From: Azonexus sp.
GTDB lineage: Bacteria > Pseudomonadota > Gammaproteobacteria > Burkholderiales > Rhodocyclaceae
DNA: 23,690 nt
Reading direction: 5' to 3'
Assembly: GCA_031285115.1 (NCBI GenBank)
Contig: JAITWU010000338.1
Span: 1-23,690 of the forward strand
The translations under genes were made by a program, and so were the position numbers. This document shows, one piece after another, positions 6,960 to 23,407 of the stretch; the first letter of the stretch is position 1; every line of letters begins with the position of its first letter. The notes below the pieces were generated by a model that saw only the letters and a program-made list of their open reading frames with translations, did no database searches and was not told where the DNA came from.

Positions 6960-8141
<1,182 letters not shown>

Positions 8142-8169
8142 ATAACCGCCACATTCTCTGAAAAAGGGC

Positions 8170-8198
8170 GGCGGCGCGTTGTGCTACAATGCGCCGCC
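8170..8198 (+). promoter_or_regulatory. Candidate lpxC promoter: extended -10 inside a large palindrome
   Basis: An extended -10 element TGC-TACAAT lies at 8182-8190 (TG at 8182-8183, hexamer at 8185-8190). It sits inside a near-perfect inverted repeat: GGCGGCGC (8170-8177), then TTGT, a GCT centre, ACAA, and GCGCCGCC (8191-8198). That gives 12 Watson-Crick pairs plus one G-T pair around a 3-base centre. A recognisable -35 is lacking. Transcription would start near 8197, about 45 bases before lpxC. The hairpin could also act at the end of the ftsZ transcript, but no T-tract follows. The same architecture precedes secA. Confidence 0.6.
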
Positions 8199-8242
8199 TT
8201 CCCCAATCCATTCAAATACTTGGCTCGCTGTTTTCTCCTTTT

Positions 8243-9157
8243 ATGCTCAAGCAACGCACCTTGAAAACCATCACCCGCGCCTCCGGCGTCGGTTTGCATG
8301 GTGGCGTCAAGGTCAACATCGCCTTGCGCCCGGCGGCGCCCGATACCGGCATCGTCTTTCGCCGCACCGATTTGCCGCAGGCGGTCGATATTCCGGCCAG
8401 CGCCACGCTCGTCGGCGATACGCGGATGTGCTCCTGCCTTGAAAAAGATGGCGTCAAAGTCGGCACCATCGAGCATCTGATGTCGGCCTTCGCCGGTTTG
8501 GGCATCGACAACGCCTGGGTCGATCTCGACGCGCCGGAAGTGCCGATTCTCGACGGCTCGGCTTCGCCCTTCGTCTTTCTCATTCAATCGGCGGGCATTG
8601 AAGAACAAAACGCCGCCAAAAAATTTATCCGCGTCACCCGCCCGGTCGAAGTCAGGGACGGCGACAAATGGGCGCGCTTCGAGCCTTACGAGGGCTATCG
8701 CCTGTCCTTCTCCATCGTTTTCAACCATCCGGCCATCGACAAATCGGCGCAACAGGCGACGATGGATTTCGCCGAGCAGTCCTACGCCCGCGAAATCGCC
8801 CGCGCCCGCACCTTCGGTTTCATGCAGGAAGTCGAATATCTGCGCGAAAACGGCCTGGCGCTCGGCGGTGGTCTGGAAAACGCCATCGTCCTCGACGAAT
8901 ATCGCGTCCTCAATCAGGATGGTCTGCGTTACGGCGACGAATTCGTCAAACACAAAATTCTCGATGCCGTGGGCGACCTCTACCTCGTCGGCCATCCGCT
9001 CTTGGCCGCCTATTCTTCGCACAAAGGCGGCCACGCGCTCAACAACCTGCTCGCCCGCCACTTGCTCAATACCCGTGACGCTTGGGAAATGGTCAGCTTT
9101 TCCGAGACCGCCCCGGCCCCGGCTGGCGTTACCCGCTGGCTGACGCAAGTCGCCTGA
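8243..9157 (+). CDS. lpxC: UDP-3-O-acyl-N-acetylglucosamine deacetylase
   Basis: Predicted 304 residues, against 305 in E. coli. LpxC is the zinc-dependent deacetylase that catalyses the committed step of lipid A synthesis in the cytoplasm. The N-terminus [19 protein letters not shown] matches the family start exactly, which fixes the ATG at 8243 rather than an in-frame ATG 54 bases upstream that overlaps the -10 box. Metal and catalytic residues are present: GTIEHLMSA (Glu77, His78), HKILDAVGD (His237, Asp241) and [10 protein letters not shown] (His264). No Shine-Dalgarno sequence is visible; the start follows a pyrimidine-rich CTCCTTTT. Its place directly after ftsZ is the standard end of the dcw cluster. 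Presence of lpxC implies a lipopolysaccharide-bearing Gram-negative cell. Confidence 0.98.
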
Positions 9158-13630: not shown

Positions 13631-13715
13631 TGTAGGATGGGTAGAGCGCAGCGAAACCCATCATTGGCGGGAACCGTTGCTGTGTTGGGTTTCGCTGCGC
13701 TCTACCCAACCTACA
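13631..13715. repeat. Dispersed palindromic repeat (about 30-bp arms) downstream of secA
   Basis: The left arm at about 13631-13660 (beginning TGTAGGATGGGTAGAGCGCA) and the right arm at about 13686-13715 (ending GCTCTACCCAACCTACA) are inverted copies. They differ by roughly one base over about 28, with some 25 bases between them. Read as protein, the arm gives the WVERSETHH peptide, which I recall as a common spurious annotation produced by this type of repeat in many proteobacterial genomes. The transcript would form a long stable hairpin between secA and argJ and could stop transcription or protect the secA 3' end. No T-tract follows, so a rho-independent terminator is not claimed. Confidence 0.8.
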
Positions 13716-15450: not shown

Positions 15451-16149
15451 ATGACAACCCGCGATTACCTCATTGCGCCGAGCATTCTCTCGGCCAATTT
15501 TGCCAGACTCGGCGAAGAAGTCGATAACGTGCTCGCATCCGGCGCTGACATCGTGCATTTCGACGTGATGGACAACCATTACGTGCCCAACCTGACCATC
15601 GGCCCGCTGGTTTGCGAGGCGCTCAAAAAGCACGGCGTCACCGCGCCGATTGACGTGCATCTGATGGTCAAGCCGGTCGATCGCATCATTCCCGATTTCG
15701 CCAAAGCGGGCGCGACGTATATCACTTTCCACCCGGAAGCCTCCGAGCATATCGACCGCACCATCGGCCTGATCCGCGAAAATGGCTGCAAACCCGGCCT
15801 CGTGTTCAATCCGGCGACGCCGCTGGATGTGCTCGAATGGGTGTTGCCCAAGCTCGATATGGTGTTGTTGATGTCAGTGAACCCCGGCTTCGGCGGGCAG
15901 AAATTCATTCCCTACGTGCTCGAAAAAGCGCGTCATGTGCGCCGCCTGATCGACGCCGCAGGCGTTGATTGCCGCCTGGAAATCGACGGCGGCGTCGGCC
16001 CCGCCAATATCAAGGAAGTGGCGGCGGCGGGCGTCGATACCTTCGTTGCCGGTTCGGCCATTTTCGGCGCTGGCAAGGAGAGCGACCCGCACCGCTACGA
16101 TTCCGTCGTCGCCGCCATGCGCGCCGAATTGCGCGCCGTCAGCCGCTAA
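15451..16149 (+). CDS. rpe: Ribulose-phosphate 3-epimerase
   Basis: Predicted 232 residues, slightly longer than the usual 220-225. Rpe interconverts ribulose-5-phosphate and xylulose-5-phosphate in the pentose phosphate and Calvin pathways, using a TIM barrel with a bound metal. Conserved barrel-strand motifs in order are [16 protein letters not shown] (about 9-24), [17 protein letters not shown] (metal-binding His and Asp), [29 protein letters not shown] (phosphate loop) and [12 protein letters not shown] near 175. The Shine-Dalgarno sequence GAGGAGAA (15439-15446) precedes the ATG. It is followed by gph after 8 bases, so the two are almost certainly cotranscribed. Confidence 0.97.
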
Positions 16150-16157
16150 GGGGCAGC

Positions 16158-16838
16158 ATGTATTTTCACAGCCTGACCATTGACCTCGACGGCACCCTGC
16201 TCGATACCGTCCCTGATCTGGCCGAAGCCGCCCGGCGGACGCTCCTCGAACTCAATGAGCCGCCGCGCAGCGTGACCGAAATCAACCACTTCGTTGGCCG
16301 TGGCATCGCCAAACTGGTCGAACGCTGCCTGACCCGCGACGCGCCGCCGACGGCGGCGCGGCTCGCCGCCGCCGTCAAGGTTTTTCAGCGCCATTACAGC
16401 GAAGTCAATGGCCGCCATACGCGCATCTACCCCGGCGTGCTGGAAGGGCTGGCGGCGTGGCGGGCGAGCGGCATCCCGATGGGCGTCGTCACCAACAAGG
16501 CGGCGATGTTCACCGGGCCGCTGCTCGAACGCATGGGGCTTGCGGCCTATTTCGATTGCGTGGTGTCCGGCGACACCACGGCGTATAAAAAGCCGCATCC
16601 CGAGCCGCTCCTCCACGTCTGCCGCCAATTTGGTACAGCGCCAGCGCGGCATCTGCACATTGGCGACTCGAAACACGACATCGAGGCCGCCCGCGCCGCT
16701 GGCTGCGCCATCTACTGCGTGCCCTATGGCTACAACGAGGGCGAGGCGGTGGACGCCGCCGATTGCGATGCGCTAGTATCCGACCTGCTCGCCGCTTACC
16801 GGCTGGCGCTCACGCATCCAGACCTCGAAACGAAATGA
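16158..16838 (+). CDS. gph: Phosphoglycolate phosphatase, HAD superfamily
   Basis: Predicted 226 residues. Gph hydrolyses 2-phosphoglycolate. HAD motifs are intact: motif I TIDLDGTLLDT near residue 7, with the nucleophile Asp in DLDGT, motif II VTNKAAM near 112, motif III KKPHPEPL near 145 and motif IV HIGDSKHDIEAARAAG near 170. The cap domain lies between motifs I and II. The start at 16158 is preceded by AAGGGG (16148-16153), which overlaps the rpe stop. A longer upstream frame would lie inside rpe and was discounted. The last codons contain a candidate promoter for the trp operon, and the stop overlaps the trp leader peptide start (ATGA). Substrate assignment follows the conserved rpe-gph-trpE neighbourhood. 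Confidence 0.93.
   Translation: MYFHSLTIDLDGTLLDTVPDLAEAARRTLLELNEPPRSVTEINHFVGRGIAKLVERCLTRDAPPTAARLAAAVKVFQRHYSEVNGRHTRIYPGVLEGLAAWRASGIPMGVVTNKAAMFTGPLLERMGLAAYFDCVVSGDTTAYKKPHPEPLLHVCRQFGTAPARHLHIGDSKHDIEAARAAGCAIYCVPYGYNEGEAVDAADCDALVSDLLAAYRLALTHPDLETK
16750..16779 (+). promoter_or_regulatory. Candidate trp operon promoter inside the 3' end of gph
   Basis: TGGACG (16750-16755) and TAGTAT (16774-16779) are separated by 18 bases, each matching four of six consensus positions. The -10 region uses the codons CTA-GTA, which stand out in a stretch otherwise dominated by C- or G-ending codons. The context GCGCTAGTATCCGACC resembles the lpxC and secA -10 regions. A transcript starting near 16786 would leave about 49 bases before the leader peptide start. 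This is inference only; readthrough from rpe-gph is an alternative. Confidence 0.4.
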
Positions 16839-16891
16839 CCAACCCGCGACTGTGGAATCAATGGCAAGGCTGGCGCCGCTGGCGTCCGTAG
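16835..16891 (+). CDS. trpL: trp operon leader peptide (attenuator peptide)
   Basis: An 18-codon open frame encodes [18 protein letters not shown]. Four of 18 residues are tryptophan, at positions 7, 10, 13 and 16, a strict spacing of three codons; this is far above the roughly 1% expected for Trp. Its ATG overlaps the gph stop (ATGA), so it may be translated by coupling. Ten bases after its stop a GC hairpin with a T-tract begins, and trpE follows 70 bases after the leader stop. In the known enterobacterial mechanism, ribosome stalling at Trp codons when charged tRNA-Trp is scarce favours an antiterminator and transcription of the structural genes. Composition, position and the following terminator together make this a convincing attenuator; the fold itself was judged by eye only. 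Confidence 0.85.
16872..16886 (+). promoter_or_regulatory. Candidate 1:2 hairpin and antiterminator strand of the trp attenuator
   Basis: GGCGCC (16872-16877) can pair with GGCGTC (16881-16886) across a GCU loop (one G-U pair), and this hairpin includes the third and fourth Trp codons. The competing strand GCTGGCGT (16878-16885) can instead pair with GCGTCGGC (16903-16910) in the upstream arm of the terminator, with 8 pairs including three G-U. A ribosome held at the first or second Trp codon would leave 16878-16885 free, whereas one reaching the stop codon would cover it. The pairings were found by inspection, and no energies were calculated. Confidence 0.45.
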
Positions 16892-16901
16892 ATCCTGCCC
16901 G

Positions 16902-16930
16902 CGCGTCGGCTCGACGCGATTTTCCTTTTT
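16902..16930 (+). terminator. Rho-independent terminator of the trp attenuator
   Basis: A perfect 7-bp stem, CGCGTCG (16902-16908) and CGACGCG (16912-16918), with a GCT loop is followed directly by ATTTTCCTTTTT (16919-16930). Together these form a canonical intrinsic terminator. It lies between the Trp-rich leader peptide and trpE and ends 31 bases before the trpE start, so it can only serve to stop transcription before trpE. Confidence 0.85.
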
Positions 16931-16961
16931 CGCAATCCCCGTCATTTTTAGAGGTTCCGCC

Positions 16962-18449
16962 ATGACTGAAACTGAATTTGCTGCGCTCGCGGCGCAAGGT
17001 TACAACCGCATCCCCGTCTCGCTGGAAACCTTCGCCGATCTCGACACGGCGCTTTCCATCTACCTCAAGCTGACCAGCGGCGCCAACGGCAGCCACTATT
17101 CCTACCTGCTCGAATCGGTGCAGGGCGGCGAACGCTTTGGCCGCTATTCGATCATTGGTCTGGCCGCCGCGACGCGCCTCGTCGTCAATGGCAATCAAGT
17201 GCTGGTGCTGACCGGCAACCGCGTCGCCGAGCGGGTCGATGACGTGAATCCGCTCGACTTCATTGGCGACTACATGCGCCGCTTCCGCGCGCCGCCGGGC
17301 GACGGTCTGCCGCGCTTCTGCGGCGGGCTGGTCGGCTGCTTTGGCTACGACACCGTGCGTTACGTCGAAAGCCGTCTGGCGGAGGCCGCCAAGCCGGACG
17401 CCATCGGCACGCCCGACATCGGCCTCTTGCTCTCCGAAGAAATCGCCGTCGTCGACAACCTCTCCGGCAAGTTGACGCTGATCGTCTATGCCGAACCCGG
17501 CTTCCCCGGCGCTTACCAGAAAGCGCGCGCGCGCCTGAAGGAACTGCTCGGCAAACTGCGCCTCCCGGCCAGCATTCCGGCGGAACAGCCCGCGCCGTCG
17601 GAACCGGCGGTATCCCTGTTCGGCGAACAGGCGTTCAAGGCGGCGGTGAGCACCATCAAGGACTACATCACGGCGGGCGACATCATGCAGACCGTGCTCT
17701 CGCAGCGCATGACCAAGCCTTTCGTGGCGAGTCCCCTGGCCCTTTACCGGGCGCTGAGGAGCCTCAACCCCTCGCCCTACATGTTTTACTTCGATTTCGA
17801 GGACTACCACGTCGTTGGCGCGTCCCCCGAAATCCTCGTCCGCCTCGAAGGCGAGCGCATCACCGTGCGCCCCATCGCCGGAACCCGCAAACGCGGCGCA
17901 ACGCCGGAAGAAGACGCGGCGCTCGCCGACGAGCTGCTCGCCGACGAAAAAGAACGCGCCGAACACACCCAGTTGCTCGATCTGGGCCGCAACGACTGTG
18001 GTCGCGTCGCCCGCACCGGCACCGTCAAGCTGACCGAAAACATGACCATCGAGCGTTACTCGCACGTCATGCACATCGTCTCCAATGTCGAAGGCCGCCT
18101 GCAACCGGGGTTGGACGCCCTCGACGTGCTCCGGGCCACCTTCCCCGCTGGCACCGTTTCCGGCGCGCCGAAAGTCCGCGCCATGGAAATCATCGACCAG
18201 CTCGAACCCGTCAAACGCGGCATCTACGCGGGCGCTGTCGGCTACCTCGGCTTTCATGGCGACATGGATCTCGCCATCGCCATCCGCACCGCCGTCGTCA
18301 AGGATCGCCAACTGCACGTGCAGGCGGGCGCGGGCATCGTCGCCGATTCCAACCCGCAGGCCGAATGGGAAGAAACCCGCAACAAAGCCCGCGCCGTCCT
18401 GCGGGCGGCGGAGCTGGCGGAACAGGGGCTGGATACGCTGGTGGATTGA
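16962..18449 (+). CDS. trpE: Anthranilate synthase component I
   Basis: Predicted 495 residues. TrpE converts chorismate to anthranilate, using ammonia delivered by the glutamine amidotransferase TrpG; this is the first step of tryptophan synthesis. The N-terminal block [21 protein letters not shown] contains the LLES segment associated with Trp feedback binding. The chorismate-binding domain shows [63 protein letters not shown] and [27 protein letters not shown] at 16950-16955 is the ribosome-binding site. It sits behind the leader peptide and terminator described above. The stop codon lies within the first unit of a heptanucleotide repeat array. Unlike the usual betaproteobacterial order, trpG is not adjacent: four toxin-antitoxin genes intervene. 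Confidence 0.98.
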
Positions 18450-18520: not shown

Positions 18521-18555
18521 TAATGGTCTCCATGAAGACCATTAAATTGTATAAT
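18521..18555 (+). promoter_or_regulatory. hipBA promoter with overlapping operator palindrome
   Basis: A perfect 9-bp inverted repeat, TAATGGTCT (18521-18529) and AGACCATTA (18536-18544) with a 6-base spacer, lies just upstream of a consensus -10 box TATAAT (18550-18555). It covers the place where the -35 would be. No good -35 hexamer is present. This is the expected layout for autorepression by an antitoxin of the HipB type. Predicted start near 18562 leaves about 46 bases before hipB. Confidence 0.75.
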
Positions 18556-18607
18556 GATCTCTATCAAAACACTAAATTTAATTACCCGTCCCTGTCGAAC
18601 ACCTCCA

Positions 18608-18931
18608 ATGAACACCCCGCTCCCCCTCCCGGCTGCTCGCGCCATCGAGAAACTTGGTGGCGATATTTCCCTGGCTCGCCGCCGCCGCCATATTTCTCAG
18701 GCGTCGCTGGCCGAGCGCATGGGGGCTTCGTTGACCACCGTGCGGCGCATGGAAAAAGGCGATGAGCGTGTCCCCATCCATTTTTTCGCCCGCGCCCTGC
18801 ATGTTTTTGGCGAAATTCAGGCGCTCGAAAATCTGCTCGATACCGCCAAAGACGACATCGGCCTGCTGCTCATGGACGAGCGCCTGCCGCAGCGCGTGCG
18901 CCGCAAAACGGGTGTTTCGGGGGCGCTGTGA
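18608..18931 (+). CDS. hipB: HipB-type antitoxin, XRE family DNA-binding protein
   Basis: Predicted 107 residues. A helix-turn-helix domain of the Cro/C1 (XRE) type spans about residues 18-68. It includes LARRRRHISQASLAERMGAS, then TTVRRMEKGDERVPIHFFARALHVFG, with the usual QA-SLAERMG first helices and a recognition helix at TTVRRME. A short C-terminal tail (KDDIGLLLMDERLPQRVRRK) follows and is the likely toxin-contact region. An in-frame ATG at 18554 overlaps the -10 box and is rejected as the start. No Shine-Dalgarno precedes 18608. The stop codon overlaps the hipA start (TGATG). Antitoxin identity comes from the pairing with the HipA kinase; the protein is expected to bind the palindrome at 18521-18544 and repress its own operon. 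Confidence 0.88.
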   Translation: MNTPLPLPAARAIEKLGGDISLARRRRHISQASLAERMGASLTTVRRMEKGDERVPIHFFARALHVFGEIQALENLLDTAKDDIGLLLMDERLPQRVRRKTGVSGAL

Positions 18932-20280
18932 TGACTGCCGCCGCCCTTGCCGCCCGCCAGCAGACGCAGCTTGCCATTGGTCAGGCGGGCCTGCCGCTCG
19001 GCTCGCTCACCTACGCCCGTCAGGGGCGGCGCGAACACAGCGCCTTTGCCTACGCTGCCGCCTGGCTCGACAACCCGGCGCGCTTCAATATCTCGGCTGA
19101 TCTGCGATTAACCGCAGGCCACCAGTCGCACAAGGCGGCTTCGGCGCACGACTCGGTTTTTCATGGGGCGATTGCCGACACCGCGCCCGATGCCTGGGGG
19201 CGGCGCGTCATTGCCCGCGACCACGCCAAACGCCGCAAAGACAATCCTGAACTCGCGGCGTTGAGCGAACTGGATTACCTGCTGGCGGTCGACGATTTCA
19301 GCCGCATCGGCGCGCTACGTCTTTACGACGCAGCGGACGGCTGGCAACGAACCGTCGCCGACGGCCAGCGCCGCACCCCGCCGCTCATCGAACTGGAGCA
19401 CATTTTTCAAGCCAGCCGCGCCGTCGAACGCGGCCAGGAAAGCGCCGCCGACCTGCGCTATCTGCAAGGCAAAGGCACCTCGCTCGGCGGAATGCGCCCC
19501 AAGTGCACCCTCGTCGATGCAGACGGTTGGCTCGCCATTGGCAAATTCCCGAGCATCGGCGATGTCCGCAGCGTCACCCGTGGCGAAGTGCTGGCGCTCA
19601 AACTGGCGGCGCAGGCGGGCATTGATGTACCCGCCGCCCGCATCGTCGATCTGGGCGAGACGCCGGTTGCCGTCATCCGCCGTTTTGACCGCTGCCTCGA
19701 CCACGCCGGGGCTGTCGGGCGTATTCCCTACCAATCCGCCGCATCGCTCTTGCAAGCCGCCCGCGACGACGAGCGCAGCTACGCCGAAATCGCCGACGCC
19801 ATCCGCGCCCACGGCCACGCGCCGCTGCCCGACCTGCGGCAACTGTGGCGGCGGCTGGTCTTCAATCTGCTCATCAGCAATGTCGATGACCACCTGCAAA
19901 ATCTCGGCTTTCTCCATGTCAGCCACAGCCAGTGGCGGCTGGCCCCGGCCTTTGACATCAACCCCTTTCCCGACAAAGAGCGCGAATCGAAAACCTGGCT
20001 CTCGCCGCAGGATGGCCCGATTACCGATTTGCCGATGCTGCTCGCCCGCGCCCCCTGGTTCGCGCTCGACGAAACGCAGGCGCTGGCTGTCTTGGCCGAA
20101 GTACGCGCCGCCGTCGCCAACTGGCGGCAAACCGCCCGCAGCCCGGAGGTCGGTTTGCGACCAGCGGAACTCGACGACTTCGCGCCTGCCTTCGAGCACA
20201 AACAGATGGCCGAGGCGGCGGCGCTGCTTGGACGCCAGATATTCCACCAATCCCAAATTGGGACTAAAATCACGCCATGA
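18931..20280 (+). CDS. hipA: HipA-type serine/threonine kinase toxin
   Basis: Predicted 449 residues, close to the 440 of E. coli HipA. HipA kinases arrest growth by phosphorylating aminoacyl-tRNA synthetases. The N-terminal subdomain (about 13-135) carries the couple-domain pattern, including FHGAIADTAPDAWGRRV. The kinase core has the glycine-rich loop GTSLGGMRPK at 182-191, IGKFP with a likely ATP-contact lysine at 205, ISNVDDHLQN with catalytic aspartates near 319-320 and Asn324, and AFDINPFP with the metal-binding Asp342. All expected residues are present, so the kinase should be active. A GTG at 18928 is an alternative start. The 3' end contains the higBA palindrome and -10 box, and its stop overlaps the higB ATG by four bases. 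The substrate cannot be read from sequence. Confidence 0.92.
   Translation: MTAAALAARQQTQLAIGQAGLPLGSLTYARQGRREHSAFAYAAAWLDNPARFNISADLRLTAGHQSHKAASAHDSVFHGAIADTAPDAWGRRVIARDHAKRRKDNPELAALSELDYLLAVDDFSRIGALRLYDAADGWQRTVADGQRRTPPLIELEHIFQASRAVERGQESAADLRYLQGKGTSLGGMRPKCTLVDADGWLAIGKFPSIGDVRSVTRGEVLALKLAAQAGIDVPAARIVDLGETPVAVIRRFDRCLDHAGAVGRIPYQSAASLLQAARDDERSYAEIADAIRAHGHAPLPDLRQLWRRLVFNLLISNVDDHLQNLGFLHVSHSQWRLAPAFDINPFPDKERESKTWLSPQDGPITDLPMLLARAPWFALDETQALAVLAEVRAAVANWRQTARSPEVGLRPAELDDFAPAFEHKQMAEAAALLGRQIFHQSQIGTKITP
20251..20270 (+). promoter_or_regulatory. higBA promoter and candidate operator inside the 3' end of hipA
   Basis: The inverted repeat TCCCAA-A-TTGGGA (20251-20263) is followed after one base by the -10-like box TAAAAT (20265-20270). 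A transcript would begin at about 20276-20278, practically at the higB ATG (20277), so its mRNA would be leaderless or nearly so. The palindrome occupies the spacer between -35 and -10 and is a good site for HigA autorepression. The -35 is weak. The whole site lies within hipA codons. Confidence 0.6.
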
Positions 20281-20582
20281 ACATCGTCGCGGTAAAATTG
20301 CTTCGCGCTTTCTGGGAAACGCACCCGGATACCGAACAGGCGCTCAAATCCTGGGTTGATGAAGTAAAGAAAGCCGGATGGACGCAGCCTGCTGAGATCA
20401 AGGCGCAATATCGCAGCGCCAGCATTCTCAAAAATCGCCGTGTGGTGTTCAACATCAAGGGCAACGATTACCGTCTGGTGGTGGCCGTTGCCTATTCTTA
20501 TCAAGCGGTCTACATCAAATTCATCGGCACTCACCCGGAATACGACGCCATCAATGCCGAGACGGTAGAAATGGAAATCTGA
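20277..20582 (+). CDS. higB: HigB-type mRNA interferase toxin
   Basis: Predicted 101 residues. It belongs to the RelE-superfamily HigB toxins of the E. coli YgjN type, which cleave mRNA on the ribosome. The central and C-terminal block is characteristic: KNRRVVFNIKGNDYRLVVAV, then YIKFIGTHPEYDAINAETV, with the conserved His-x-x-Tyr-Asp. The N-terminal helices (LRAFWETHPDTEQALKSWV) also fit. The gene starts within the hipA stop (ATGA) and is followed after one base by higA, so the toxin-first order of higBA is kept. No Shine-Dalgarno is clear; expression may depend on coupling with hipA or on a leaderless transcript from the promoter at 20251-20270. Confidence 0.92.
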   Translation: MNIVAVKLLRAFWETHPDTEQALKSWVDEVKKAGWTQPAEIKAQYRSASILKNRRVVFNIKGNDYRLVVAVAYSYQAVYIKFIGTHPEYDAINAETVEMEI

Positions 20583-20583
20583 C

Positions 20584-20964
20584 ATGGAAATTCACCCGAT
20601 CCGCACCGAAGCAGACTACAAAGCCGCGCTACGCGAAGTTTCGGCCTGTTTCGACAACGAACCCGCTCCCGGCACCGCTGCGGGCGACCGTTTTGAAATT
20701 TTGTTGACCCTCGTCGAAGCCTACGAGGCCAAACACTATCCGATTGATCTTCCCGATCCGGTCGAGGCCATCAAGTTCCGTATGGATCAAGCCGGGTTGG
20801 CGCCCAAAGATCTGGTGCCAATGATCGGTCGGATCAATCGCGTCTATGAGATCTTGAATCGCAAGCGCCCGCTGACCTTGAGCATGATCTGGAAATTGCA
20901 CGGTGCATTGGGCATTCCCGCCGAGTGCCTGATCCAGCCTCCGAAGCTGCAAGCCACAAACTAA
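20584..20964 (+). CDS. higA: HigA-type antitoxin, XRE family
   Basis: Predicted 126 residues. It resembles E. coli HigA (YgjM): an N-terminal helical toxin-binding part ([23 protein letters not shown], then [19 protein letters not shown]) precedes a C-terminal helix-turn-helix domain at about residues 60-120. The latter contains [53 protein letters not shown]. It neutralises HigB and should bind its own operator. It starts one base after the higB stop, with a weak GGAAA upstream. It ends 22 bases before trpG, and no terminator is visible in between. Identification is by family pattern and pairing. Confidence 0.92.
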
Positions 20965-20986: not shown

Positions 20987-21559
20987 ATGCTGCTGATGAT
21001 CGACAACTACGACAGCTTCACCTACAACATCGTCCAGTACCTTGGCGAACTTGGGCAGGAAGTGCGGGTTTTTCGCAACGACGCCATCACCCTGGACGAA
21101 ATCGCCGCCTTGCAGCCGCGCTATCTCGTCATCTCGCCCGGCCCGTGCGCCCCGGCGCAAGCCGGAATTTCACTCGCGGCGATCCGGCAATTCGCTGGCA
21201 AAATCCCGCTCCTTGGCGTCTGCCTCGGCCATCAGGCCATTGGCGAAGCCTTTGGCGGGCGTATTGTGTCGGCCAAACAGTTGATGCACGGCAAAGTCTC
21301 GCCGGTCGAGCACCAAGACATCGGCGTTTTTCGCGGCCTGCCCAACCCGCTCACCTGCACCCGCTACCATTCGCTCGCCATCGACCGCGAAAGTCTGCCC
21401 GAATGTCTGGAAATCACCGCCTGGACAGCCGATGGCGAAATCATGGGCGTGCGCCATAAAACGCTCGCCGTCGAAGGCATCCAGTTTCACCCCGAATCCA
21501 TCCTGACCGAATGCGGTCACGATTTACTCAAAAACTTCCTTGAGGAACACCGCCCATGA
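20987..21559 (+). CDS. trpG: Anthranilate synthase component II (glutamine amidotransferase)
   Basis: Predicted 190 residues, a stand-alone class I amidotransferase of normal size. TrpG releases ammonia from glutamine for TrpE. The catalytic triad is complete: Cys79 in [17 protein letters not shown], and His168 and Glu170 in [22 protein letters not shown] near residue 50 and YHSLAID near 127 are family markers. In some bacteria the same subunit also serves p-aminobenzoate synthase (PabA), so a shared role is possible. AAAGGA lies about ten bases upstream. It overlaps trpD by four bases (ATGA). The preceding genes are higBA rather than trpE, so its transcription must come through, or from within, the toxin-antitoxin block. 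Confidence 0.96.
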
Positions 21560-22581
21560 CGCCGCAAGCCGCCCTGCAACGGGTGATCGAACACCGCGAA
21601 ATATTCCATGACGAAATGGTTTCGCTCATGCGCCAGATCATGAGCGGTCAGGTCTCGCCGGTCATGGTCGCCGCCATTCTCACAGGCTTGCGCGTCAAGA
21701 AAGAAACCGTCGGCGAAATCGCCGCCGCCGCCAGCGTCATGCGCGAACTGGCGACGCCGGTCAAAATTCCCGACGACCAGCATTTTGTCGACATCGTCGG
21801 CACTGGCGGCGACAGCGCCCACACCTTCAACATCTCCACCGCCTCGGCTTTTGTCGCTGCCGCCGCCGGGGCCAAAATCGCCAAACATGGCGGGCGCAGC
21901 GTTTCCTCCAGTTCCGGCAGCGCCGACGTGCTCGAAGCCCTGGGCGCCAACATCAACCTGCCGCCGGACAAAGTGGCCGCCTGCATTGAAGAAACCGGCC
22001 TCGGCTTCATGTTCGCCCCCAACCACCACGCGGCGATGAAGCACGTCGCCCCGGTGCGGCGCGAAATGGGCGTGCGCACCATCTTCAACATCCTCGGCCC
22101 CTTGACCAACCCGGCCAGCGCTCCGAATACCCTGATGGGCGTCTTTCACCCCGACCTCGTCGGCATTCAGGTGCGCGTCATGCAGCGATTGGGGGCCAAG
22201 CGCGTCCTGGTCGTGCACGGCAAAGACAACCTCGACGAAATCTCCCTTGGCGCGGCCACCCTGGTTGGCGAATTGAAAGACGGCGAAGTGCGCGAATACG
22301 AAATCCACCCCGAAGACTACGGTCTACAAATGCGCTCGCTGAGAAACCTGCGCGTCGACAGCGCCGCAGAATCCAAAGCCATGCTCCTCTCGGCCCTCGC
22401 CAACGAGCCTGGCGCCGCCCGCGAAATCGTCTGCCTCAACGCGGGCGCCGCCCTCTACATCGCCAGCCGCGCCGCCAGCATTGCCGAAGGCATCGAACTC
22501 GCCCGCCAAACCATCGAAAGCGGCGCCGCCCGCGCCAAAGTCGAACAATTCATCCAATGCACCCAACGCCTGGCCGCCTGA
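21556..22581 (+). CDS. trpD: Anthranilate phosphoribosyltransferase
   Basis: Predicted 341 residues. TrpD joins anthranilate to PRPP to give phosphoribosylanthranilate. The PRPP-binding glycine-rich motif [15 protein letters not shown] lies near residues 80-95, followed by [21 protein letters not shown] near 115. [34 protein letters not shown] near 155-190 is a characteristic block, and GKDNLDEIS lies near 222. GAGGA sits nine bases before the ATG, inside the end of trpG. The stop codon falls within the first unit of a heptanucleotide array that fills the gap to trpC. Confidence 0.97.
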
Positions 22582-22618
22582 CTGCTGCCCCCTGTCACCT
22601 GAATCCTGAACCCTGATG
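22577..22618. repeat. Heptanucleotide tandem-repeat array spanning the trpD stop to the trpC start
   Basis: Six consecutive 7-base units run CCTGACT, GCTGCCC, CCTGTCA, CCTGAAT, CCTGAAC, CCTGATG, consensus CCTGANN. The first unit contains the trpD stop codon (TGA at 22579-22581) and the last contains the trpC start codon (ATG at 22616-22618). It has the same orientation and the same terminal CCTGATG unit as the array before murC. No purine-rich ribosome-binding site remains before trpC. Confidence 0.85.
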
Positions 22619-23407
22619 ACCGACATCCTCGCCCAAATCATCGCTGCCAAGCGCCGCGAAATCGCCGCTGCGCTCGCGCACAAACCCCTCGCCGCCCTTG
22701 AACTTGAGGCCGCCGCCCAACCCGCGCCGCGCGATTTCGTCGCCGCCATCCGCGCCAAACTCGCCGCCGGGCAGCCCGCCGTGATTGCCGAAATCAAAAA
22801 AGCCAGCCCGTCGAAAGGCATCATCCGTCCCGACTTTCACCCCGCCGACATCGCCCGCAGCTACGCCGCCCACGGCGCCGCCTGCCTCTCTGTGCTCACC
22901 GACTGCGACTACTTCCACGGCTCGCCCGAATACCTGCAAGCCGCCCGCGCCGCCTGCCCGCTGCCCGTGCTGCGCAAAGACTTCATCATCGACCGCTACC
23001 AGATCGCCGAAGCGCGAGTCATGGGCGCTGACGCCATCCTGCTGATTGCCGCCGCCCTCGACCTCGCCCACATGCAGGAACTCGAAGCCATCGCCCACGG
23101 CTACGGCCTCGCCGTGCTGGTCGAAGTGCACAACGGCGACGAACTCACCGCCGCCCTGCAACTCCAAACCCCGCTCATCGGCGTCAACAACCGCAACCTG
23201 CGCAGCTTTGCCGTCAGCCTCGACACCACGATTGACCTGCTCCCCCGCCTCCCGCCCGAGCGCATCGTCGTCACCGAAAGCGGCATTTCAACCCCCGCCG
23301 ACGTCGCCCGAATGCGCCATCATCACGTCAACGCCTTCCTCGTCGGCGAAGCCTTCATGCGCGCCCCCAACCCCGGCGTCGAGCTGGCGCGGCTGTTTAC
23401 TGCTTGA
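22616..23407 (+). CDS. trpC: Indole-3-glycerol-phosphate synthase
   Basis: Predicted 263 residues, a monofunctional TIM-barrel enzyme that closes the indole ring of the tryptophan pathway. Family motifs are [17 protein letters not shown] near residues 58-74 with the catalytic lysine, [36 protein letters not shown] near 121 with the second catalytic lysine, [10 protein letters not shown] near 188 with the substrate-binding Asn, and VVTESGIS near 218. No TrpF domain is fused. The ATG is part of a CCTGATG heptamer, as in murC, and lacks a Shine-Dalgarno sequence; the start is supported by the normal N-terminus ([16 protein letters not shown]). No trpF, trpB or trpA follows in the window. Confidence 0.97.

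Follow-up and report, generated by a model that had tools for sequence, protein, structure and literature searches.

A conserved tryptophan-codon leader before trpE in Azonexus and its relatives, probably a translational attenuator

The window, by which we mean the whole stretch of DNA analysed (23,690 nucleotides of an Azonexus sp. contig), carries rpe and gph followed by trpE and, behind other genes occupying 2.5 kb, by trpG, trpD, and trpC (Table 1). The interval between trpE and trpG (18554-20964) holds an HTH gene, a HipA-like gene (PF07804, 4.5e-43), a HigB-like gene (PF09907; PADLOC PD-Lambda-2_A 6.2e-38), and a PD-Lambda-2_B-like gene, which amount to two toxin-antitoxin-like pairs within the trp gene run; among 80 named relatives, TrpG was found in the available DNA behind trpE in 28, and a HipA-like match in none. 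The genome belongs to a relative of Azonexus/Dechloromonas and not to an enterobacterium; the labels of the named relatives, whose TrpE identity reached up to 90%, were Azonexus, Dechloromonas, or Betaproteobacteria. A consensus promoter was sought between 16100 and 17000 and none was found; TrpR (PF01371), for its part, gave no match in any of 41 genomes, although it did so in the E. coli and B. subtilis controls. Elsewhere in the window, the ftsZ-lpxC junction (8037-8315) gave a match to Rfam Xoo8 of 42.3 bits, the gathering score being 90; an imperfect inverted repeat at 2522-2637 is built from CAGGGATCAGGNAT-like units; and between secA and argJ lies a further inverted repeat (13631-13715), with 33-nt arms that are 94% complementary and spaced by 19 nt; its assignment to mir-761 (the Rfam name) we rejected as surely due to chance.

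Table 1. Positions in the window of the genes and RNA elements around the trp leader.
Feature	Position	Strand	Basis or remark
rpe	15451-16149		upstream of gph
gph, phosphoglycolate phosphatase	16158-16838	+	NCBIfam NF009695 and TIGR01449 above cut-offs
Arm P0, GACCTC, anti-Shine-Dalgarno-like, predicted to pair with 16951-16956	16821-16826	+	window fold, genus consensus fold
Arm P0', which contains the start codon of the leader, predicted to pair with 16941-16948	16832-16839	+	folds, alignment
Leader ORF rich in Trp (codons 7, 10, 13, 16), 18 codons and a stop	16835-16891	+	sequence, conservation
Arm P1, codons 4-10 with Trp-7 and Trp-10, predicted to pair with 16919-16933 (T-rich tail)	16846-16862	+	window fold
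Alternative ("antiterminator") strand, over codons 12-14, pairs with 16903-16911	16868-16876	+	fold
A:B hairpin, GGCGCC-GCT-GGCGTC, over codons 13-17	16872-16886	+	alignment A1, 99.4% of its cells being paired
C:D hairpin, terminator-like stem in the window	16902-16918	+	folds, alignment
T-rich tail, ATTTTCCTTTTT	16919-16930	+	behind the C:D hairpin in the window only, among 66 genus leaders
trpE Shine-Dalgarno zone, GAGGTT, target of P0	16951-16956	+	anti-SD binding -6.5 kcal/mol; pairing
trpE, anthranilate synthase component I	16962-18449	+	TIGR00564 above cut-off
trpG	20987-21559		window
trpD	21556-22581		window
trpC	22616-23407		window

An earlier note on this DNA had described, ahead of trpE, an 18-codon frame with TGG at codons 7, 10, 13, and 16 that starts inside the gph stop codon, and our reading of the sequence agrees on both counts: the leader runs from the ATG at 16835-16837, which overlaps the gph stop TGA at 16836-16838, to the TAG at 16889-16891. 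On neither strand does the window hold another ORF of 10-30 aa containing four Trp or more, and 20 dinucleotide shuffles of the window yielded one such Trp-rich ORF in total. Our genus set consisted of 72 genomes, the window's own included, of which 66 were read, the remaining six (G001, G003, G004, G026, G035, and G063) having been left out with trpE missing, partial, or not fetched. The conservation of Trp codons upstream of trpE in relatives, which the earlier note had proposed as a check, was found in 63 of those 66 genomes; among the three others, one is interrupted by the contig end (G025, with 60 nt of contig), one differs by a single base (G020, in which the same DNA is one base shorter close to the frame's end), and in the third (G019, read as L141, with the same match coordinates) trpE directly follows rpe. 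These 63 leaders plus those of L114, L130, and L134 constitute the 66 genus leaders on which all the swap, ribosome-model, single-leader, and terminator counts are based, while alignment A1 was made without ten (G011, G014, G022, G024, G036, G043, G055, G061, G064, and L130). Among the 61 genus leaders of 18 aa, both Trp-7 and Trp-16 were present in all 61, Trp-13 in 60, and Trp-10 in 44.

Farther from the genus, the leaders remained Trp-rich with another sequence, many of them displaying WRWRR- or WPWRP-like terminal runs. By rule, a leader was recognised in 23 of 33 named loci of other Rhodocyclaceae and in 16 of 25 genomes of the order, nine of the 25 having none, and the leaders of G103 and G115 being dropped from that set as chance ORFs; in a held-out order set of 78 genomes, most of which were among the highest ranked by TrpE (trpE being found in 146 of 160 genomes), the rule gave a leader in 47 and none in 31, a few of the 47 automatic picks being doubtful (e.g., G158 and G173) and kept in the counts. 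The long Trp leaders of L133, L136, L143, and L149 (29-45 aa) share a mid-frame run, AAGGAGAACG, which may mark an internal start site or serve in pairing. A Trp-codon leader is conserved before trpE, and it probably senses the tryptophan supply.

With respect to the upstream gene, the stop codon of gph overlapped with the start of the leader in 36 of the 53 genus leaders with a recognisable gph, the gph end lying at +1 in those 36 and at -7, in another frame, in 11; in 13 of the 66, no gph was recognisable upstream. Coupling is thus likely in the window, though not universal. The leader itself has almost no Shine-Dalgarno sequence, with a mean anti-SD energy of -0.6 kcal/mol versus -5.9 kcal/mol for trpE, and because it additionally starts inside the gph stop codon, it is probably translated by the ribosomes that finish gph.

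Ten bases beyond the leader stop begins the C:D stem, CGCGTCG (16902-16908) and CGACGCG (16912-16918) around a GCT loop, and the trpE ATG at 16962 stands 31 bases past the end of the T-rich tail at 16930, which coordinates coincide with those of the 7-bp hairpin and tail singled out in the earlier note. Folded alone, the hairpin had an energy of -11.1 kcal/mol (z -1.56), and 17 of 200 shuffles were as good; between 16100 and 17000, five terminator-like sites were found with that hairpin included, versus 0.8 expected. When one explicit rule, which recovers the E. coli terminator, was applied to all the leader sets, a terminator-like site between leader and trpE appeared in only one of the 66 genus leaders, that of the window, 4.7 being expected from shuffles; the corresponding counts were 4 of 23 for the other Rhodocyclaceae (2.5 expected), 2 of 16 for the order genomes (1.3 expected), and 3 of 47 for the held-out order genomes (3.5 expected). 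Across the order, terminator-like sites are no commoner than chance. The C:D hairpin, in turn, is kept in the aligned relatives that have no T-tract, and in the stem of the window one C-G pair has become T-A through change on both sides. The best reading of this pattern is that the intrinsic terminator was an addition in the lineage of the window.

That note had also proposed that the strand 16878-16885 pairs with the terminator arm. In our folds, only 16878-16879 do so (with 16902 and 16901), and the best alternative helix joins 16868-16876 to 16903-16911, mostly 5' of the strand proposed. When a ribosome was placed at Trp-7 of the window leader, the fold of the stretch left free was predicted to form this antiterminator; with stalls at Trp-10, 13, or 16, the terminator hairpin was predicted to remain. 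An antiterminator that excludes the terminator and is left free by a stall is therefore available in the window, in silico only, as stated by that fold. Of the "complete attenuator" of the E. coli kind that had been announced, the leader and a possible terminator and antiterminator hold for the window; the terminator, however, is missing in 65 of the 66 genus leaders. Likewise, of the features whose loss in relatives the note had reckoned as telling against it, relatives have kept the Trp codons and the C:D hairpin, but not the terminator.

The minimum-energy fold of the window locus, whose stability is not unusual (z -1.33), predicted the P0, P0', and P1 pairings all together, with the "T-tract" bound to the leader. 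A consensus fold of 56 genus sequences likewise paired the region around the leader start with the ribosome-binding site of trpE, and in alignment A1 a 33-pair structure was kept in 94.3% of the cells, which structure had been derived from those same sequences. Seven pairs of A1 had changed on both sides, versus 2.4 in shuffles and 1-4 in slid structures: four of the seven in P1 (which in relatives pairs TGCG..CTGG with CCAG..CGCA), two in C:D, and one in P0. The covariation within the genus comes mostly from P1 and C:D because the outer helices vary little. The CCTC of the outer arm was present in 61 of the 66 genus leaders and missing in 5, and occurred alike with the gph end at +1, with that end at -7 in the other frame, and in several leaders lacking a recognisable gph, which persistence points to selection on the RNA rather than on codons. 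At least 75% of the Shine-Dalgarno core was paired in the leader-trpE duplex in 65 of 66 genus leaders, 14 of 23 Rhodocyclaceae, 14 of 16 order genomes, and 37 of 47 held-out genomes. The conserved structure, well supported by the compared sequences, is a stem that links the start of the leader to the ribosome-binding site of trpE. In L078 (G085) and L083 (G098), the leader start and the zone upstream of trpE are long inverted copies of a ACAGAGRCACAGAG-type repeat, which repeat seems to have supplied the stem there.

Since the sequences differ greatly between families, the start of each leader (from -25 to the first Trp codon) could be tested against its own trpE site and against the sites of other genomes. 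For the 16 order genomes, one per family, the mean duplex energy was -28.4 for native pairs versus -20.0 for swapped ones (z -5.96); the 23 Rhodocyclaceae gave z -5.26 and the 66 genus leaders z -7.93. A first version with the whole leader had given -34.6 native versus -27.3 swapped in the order and -34.4 versus -33.0 in the Rhodocyclaceae, where the effect was weak because the GC-rich Trp cluster entered the duplex, for which reason the leader part was shortened. With the rule thereafter unchanged, the 47 held-out order genomes yielded z -9.51 (native -25.3, swapped -19.7), while among their controls DNA from the upstream gene gave 0.52, the reversed sequence -1.82, and the stretch past the leader stop -4.45, which last stretch is not an independent control because short spacers make it overlap with the trpE zone. 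In a mixed set of 29, the real pairs reached z -8.65, with -0.04 and -0.33 for upstream-gene DNA, -0.64 for the stretch after the leader, and -2.0 for the reversed site, so that the reversed control, at -2.0 and -1.82, was not quite zero. Pooling the order genomes (n=63) gave z -12.4, or -10.93 with the last 20 nt alone, and controls matched for spacing within the upstream gene gave -0.95 and -0.20 (n=59). The E. coli leader against its trpE site had z 0.01, a contrast provided by one sequence. Taken singly against shuffled trpE sites, 54 of 66 genus leaders, 6 of 23 Rhodocyclaceae, 7 of 16 order, and 16 of 47 held-out leaders fell below z -2; many single leaders are thus often not significant by this measure. 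Across the order, a leader and its own trpE site complement each other far better than do partners swapped between genomes. At the level of sequence comparison, the data consequently show a conserved leader whose complementarity over the trpE site coevolves, with no conserved terminator.

To relate this stem to translation, we modelled the predicted openness of the trpE Shine-Dalgarno in the genus leaders, which was 0.02 in the free RNA and rose to 0.34 once a ribosome covered the start of the leader. With a ribosome at the first Trp codon, the openness was 0.03, versus 0.02 free, if helices were allowed around the ribosome; if such helices were forbidden, the values were 0.32 at the first Trp codon and 0.30 at the stop codon. 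In these models, a Trp stall by itself thus frees the Shine-Dalgarno only with such helices forbidden, and a ribosome at the stop would then open the site nearly as much, so that only the dwell time separates the two states. In its make-up, the leader resembles a translational attenuator. Ribosomes that finish gph would translate the leader and, with ample Trp, would cross the 18 codons quickly and leave, whereupon the leader start region (16821-16862) would pair with the trpE ribosome-binding region (16919-16956), hiding the Shine-Dalgarno. Under a shortage of charged tRNA-Trp, a ribosome waiting on the Trp codons would occupy the leader arm and keep the arms apart, enabling the translation of trpE; a ribosome held in this way would part the arms for long, and a fast one would not. 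The coupling to gph, the stalling, and this direction of control are what we infer from the arrangement.

In the window only, a stall at Trp-7, by freeing 16868-16876 for 16903-16911, could also prevent intrinsic termination, which second output is possible there because the C:D hairpin has gained the T-rich tail; translation and termination may hence act together in the window. Were that termination the whole mechanism, the leader would be a classical transcription attenuator, with the Trp-7 stall blocking the terminator and transcription otherwise stopping within 16919-16930. The window does have a good terminator in its 7-bp stem and T-rich tail, the stem was kept through a two-sided change, and the predicted effects of the stalls at Trp-7 versus Trp-10, 13, and 16 would suit such control; nevertheless, the rarity of a terminator-like site in the genus, the pairing of the T-rich tail with the leader as well, and the fit of each leader start to its own trpE site, which this account leaves unexplained, render it unlikely. 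The C:D hairpin lacking a T-tract in the spacers of relatives could alternatively be compatible with a leader-dependent termination in that spacer that works by Rho, or by pausing, and needs no intrinsic terminator, and a Trp-sensing leader working through Rho has a precedent in E. coli tna, cited in the available part of PMC1262725; that mechanism, though, does not predict complementarity with the trpE Shine-Dalgarno zone, and we consider it quite improbable.

A plain translational coupling from gph through the leader to trpE, in which leader translation merely opens the trpE site without sensing Trp, would accord with the frequent overlap of gph stop and leader start and with the Shine-Dalgarno being opened best by a ribosome over that start, but hardly with the invariance of Trp-7 and Trp-16 or with the leaders that have no recognisable gph, and is the least probable account of all. 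We favour a leader that senses Trp by way of the ribosome and acts, as its conserved output, on the translation of trpE, to which reading we assign a probability of about 0.55. Its extension, that in much of the order around Azonexus and Dechloromonas, where TrpR was found in none of the 41 genomes searched, the attenuation of trpE translation replaces that of transcription, the window lineage adding a terminator and thereby obtaining two outputs from one sensor, we propose tentatively, at somewhat under even odds. The trp operon being the textbook instance of transcription attenuation, such a replacement, if true, would mean that the output of attenuation can change in a large bacterial group while the sensor stays, and that the window is a natural case of terminator gain. 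Furthermore, a leader start complementary to the target Shine-Dalgarno would constitute a simple rule for finding leaders missed by terminator-based scans.

As to known systems, Rfam run on the whole window gave no match at the element, Trp_leader included, at E up to 1. A covariance search of single loci against Rfam, as the earlier note had advised for Trp leader models, left the element of the window locus and of eight relatives unmatched at E up to 5, with E. coli scoring 93.1 bits against Trp_leader (RF00513), and of 229 genomes of the class none exceeded the cut-off of that model, 33 having weaker matches. The enterobacterial leader (E. coli trpL, RF00513) resembles the present one: in both, a short ORF with Trp codons stands immediately ahead of trpE and the end of the leader is flanked by alternative helices, and the window shares with it a terminator-like hairpin with a T-rich tail. 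The two differ in that here the Trp codons are spaced by three (W-x-x-W) instead of adjacent, the leader ORF overlaps the upstream gene, the leader start pairs with the trpE Shine-Dalgarno zone, of which pairing the single E. coli sequence shows none, and the terminator is missing from nearly all genus leaders. A description of the present trp arrangement was not recognised in our literature search, whose reach did not extend to key surveys, so that an earlier publication is possible.

Antibiotic-sensing leaders offer another parallel, as in ermC, where the downstream ribosome-binding site is masked. In toiL-topAI, according to the available part of PMC12121999, a ribosome occupying the short ORF ahead disturbs the pairing around the ribosome-binding site of the next gene, as we propose here. 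Both of those leaders sense antibiotics, whereas the codons here point to charged tRNA-Trp. Attenuation through overlap of a ribosome-binding site is a matter for which PMC4833913, in its accessible part, cites a 2010 survey, and the part of PMC2965389 available to us mentions an earlier scan that detected translational attenuators, its own terminator scan not detecting them, and describes a hairpin doing both jobs as undemonstrated at its date. Among the published designs that we found, and as far as the excerpts of PMC1262725 go, the nearest is the LEU element of Actinobacteria, located before leuA, in which, likewise, the leader carries codons for the end product, no terminator is obvious, and the base stem takes in the Shine-Dalgarno of the target gene. 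There, the run of leucine codons itself pairs with the leuA Shine-Dalgarno, a pseudoknot being proposed, and its authors, in those same excerpts, deemed leader translation unlikely as the mechanism; here, it is the leader start that pairs, and the gene is trpE.
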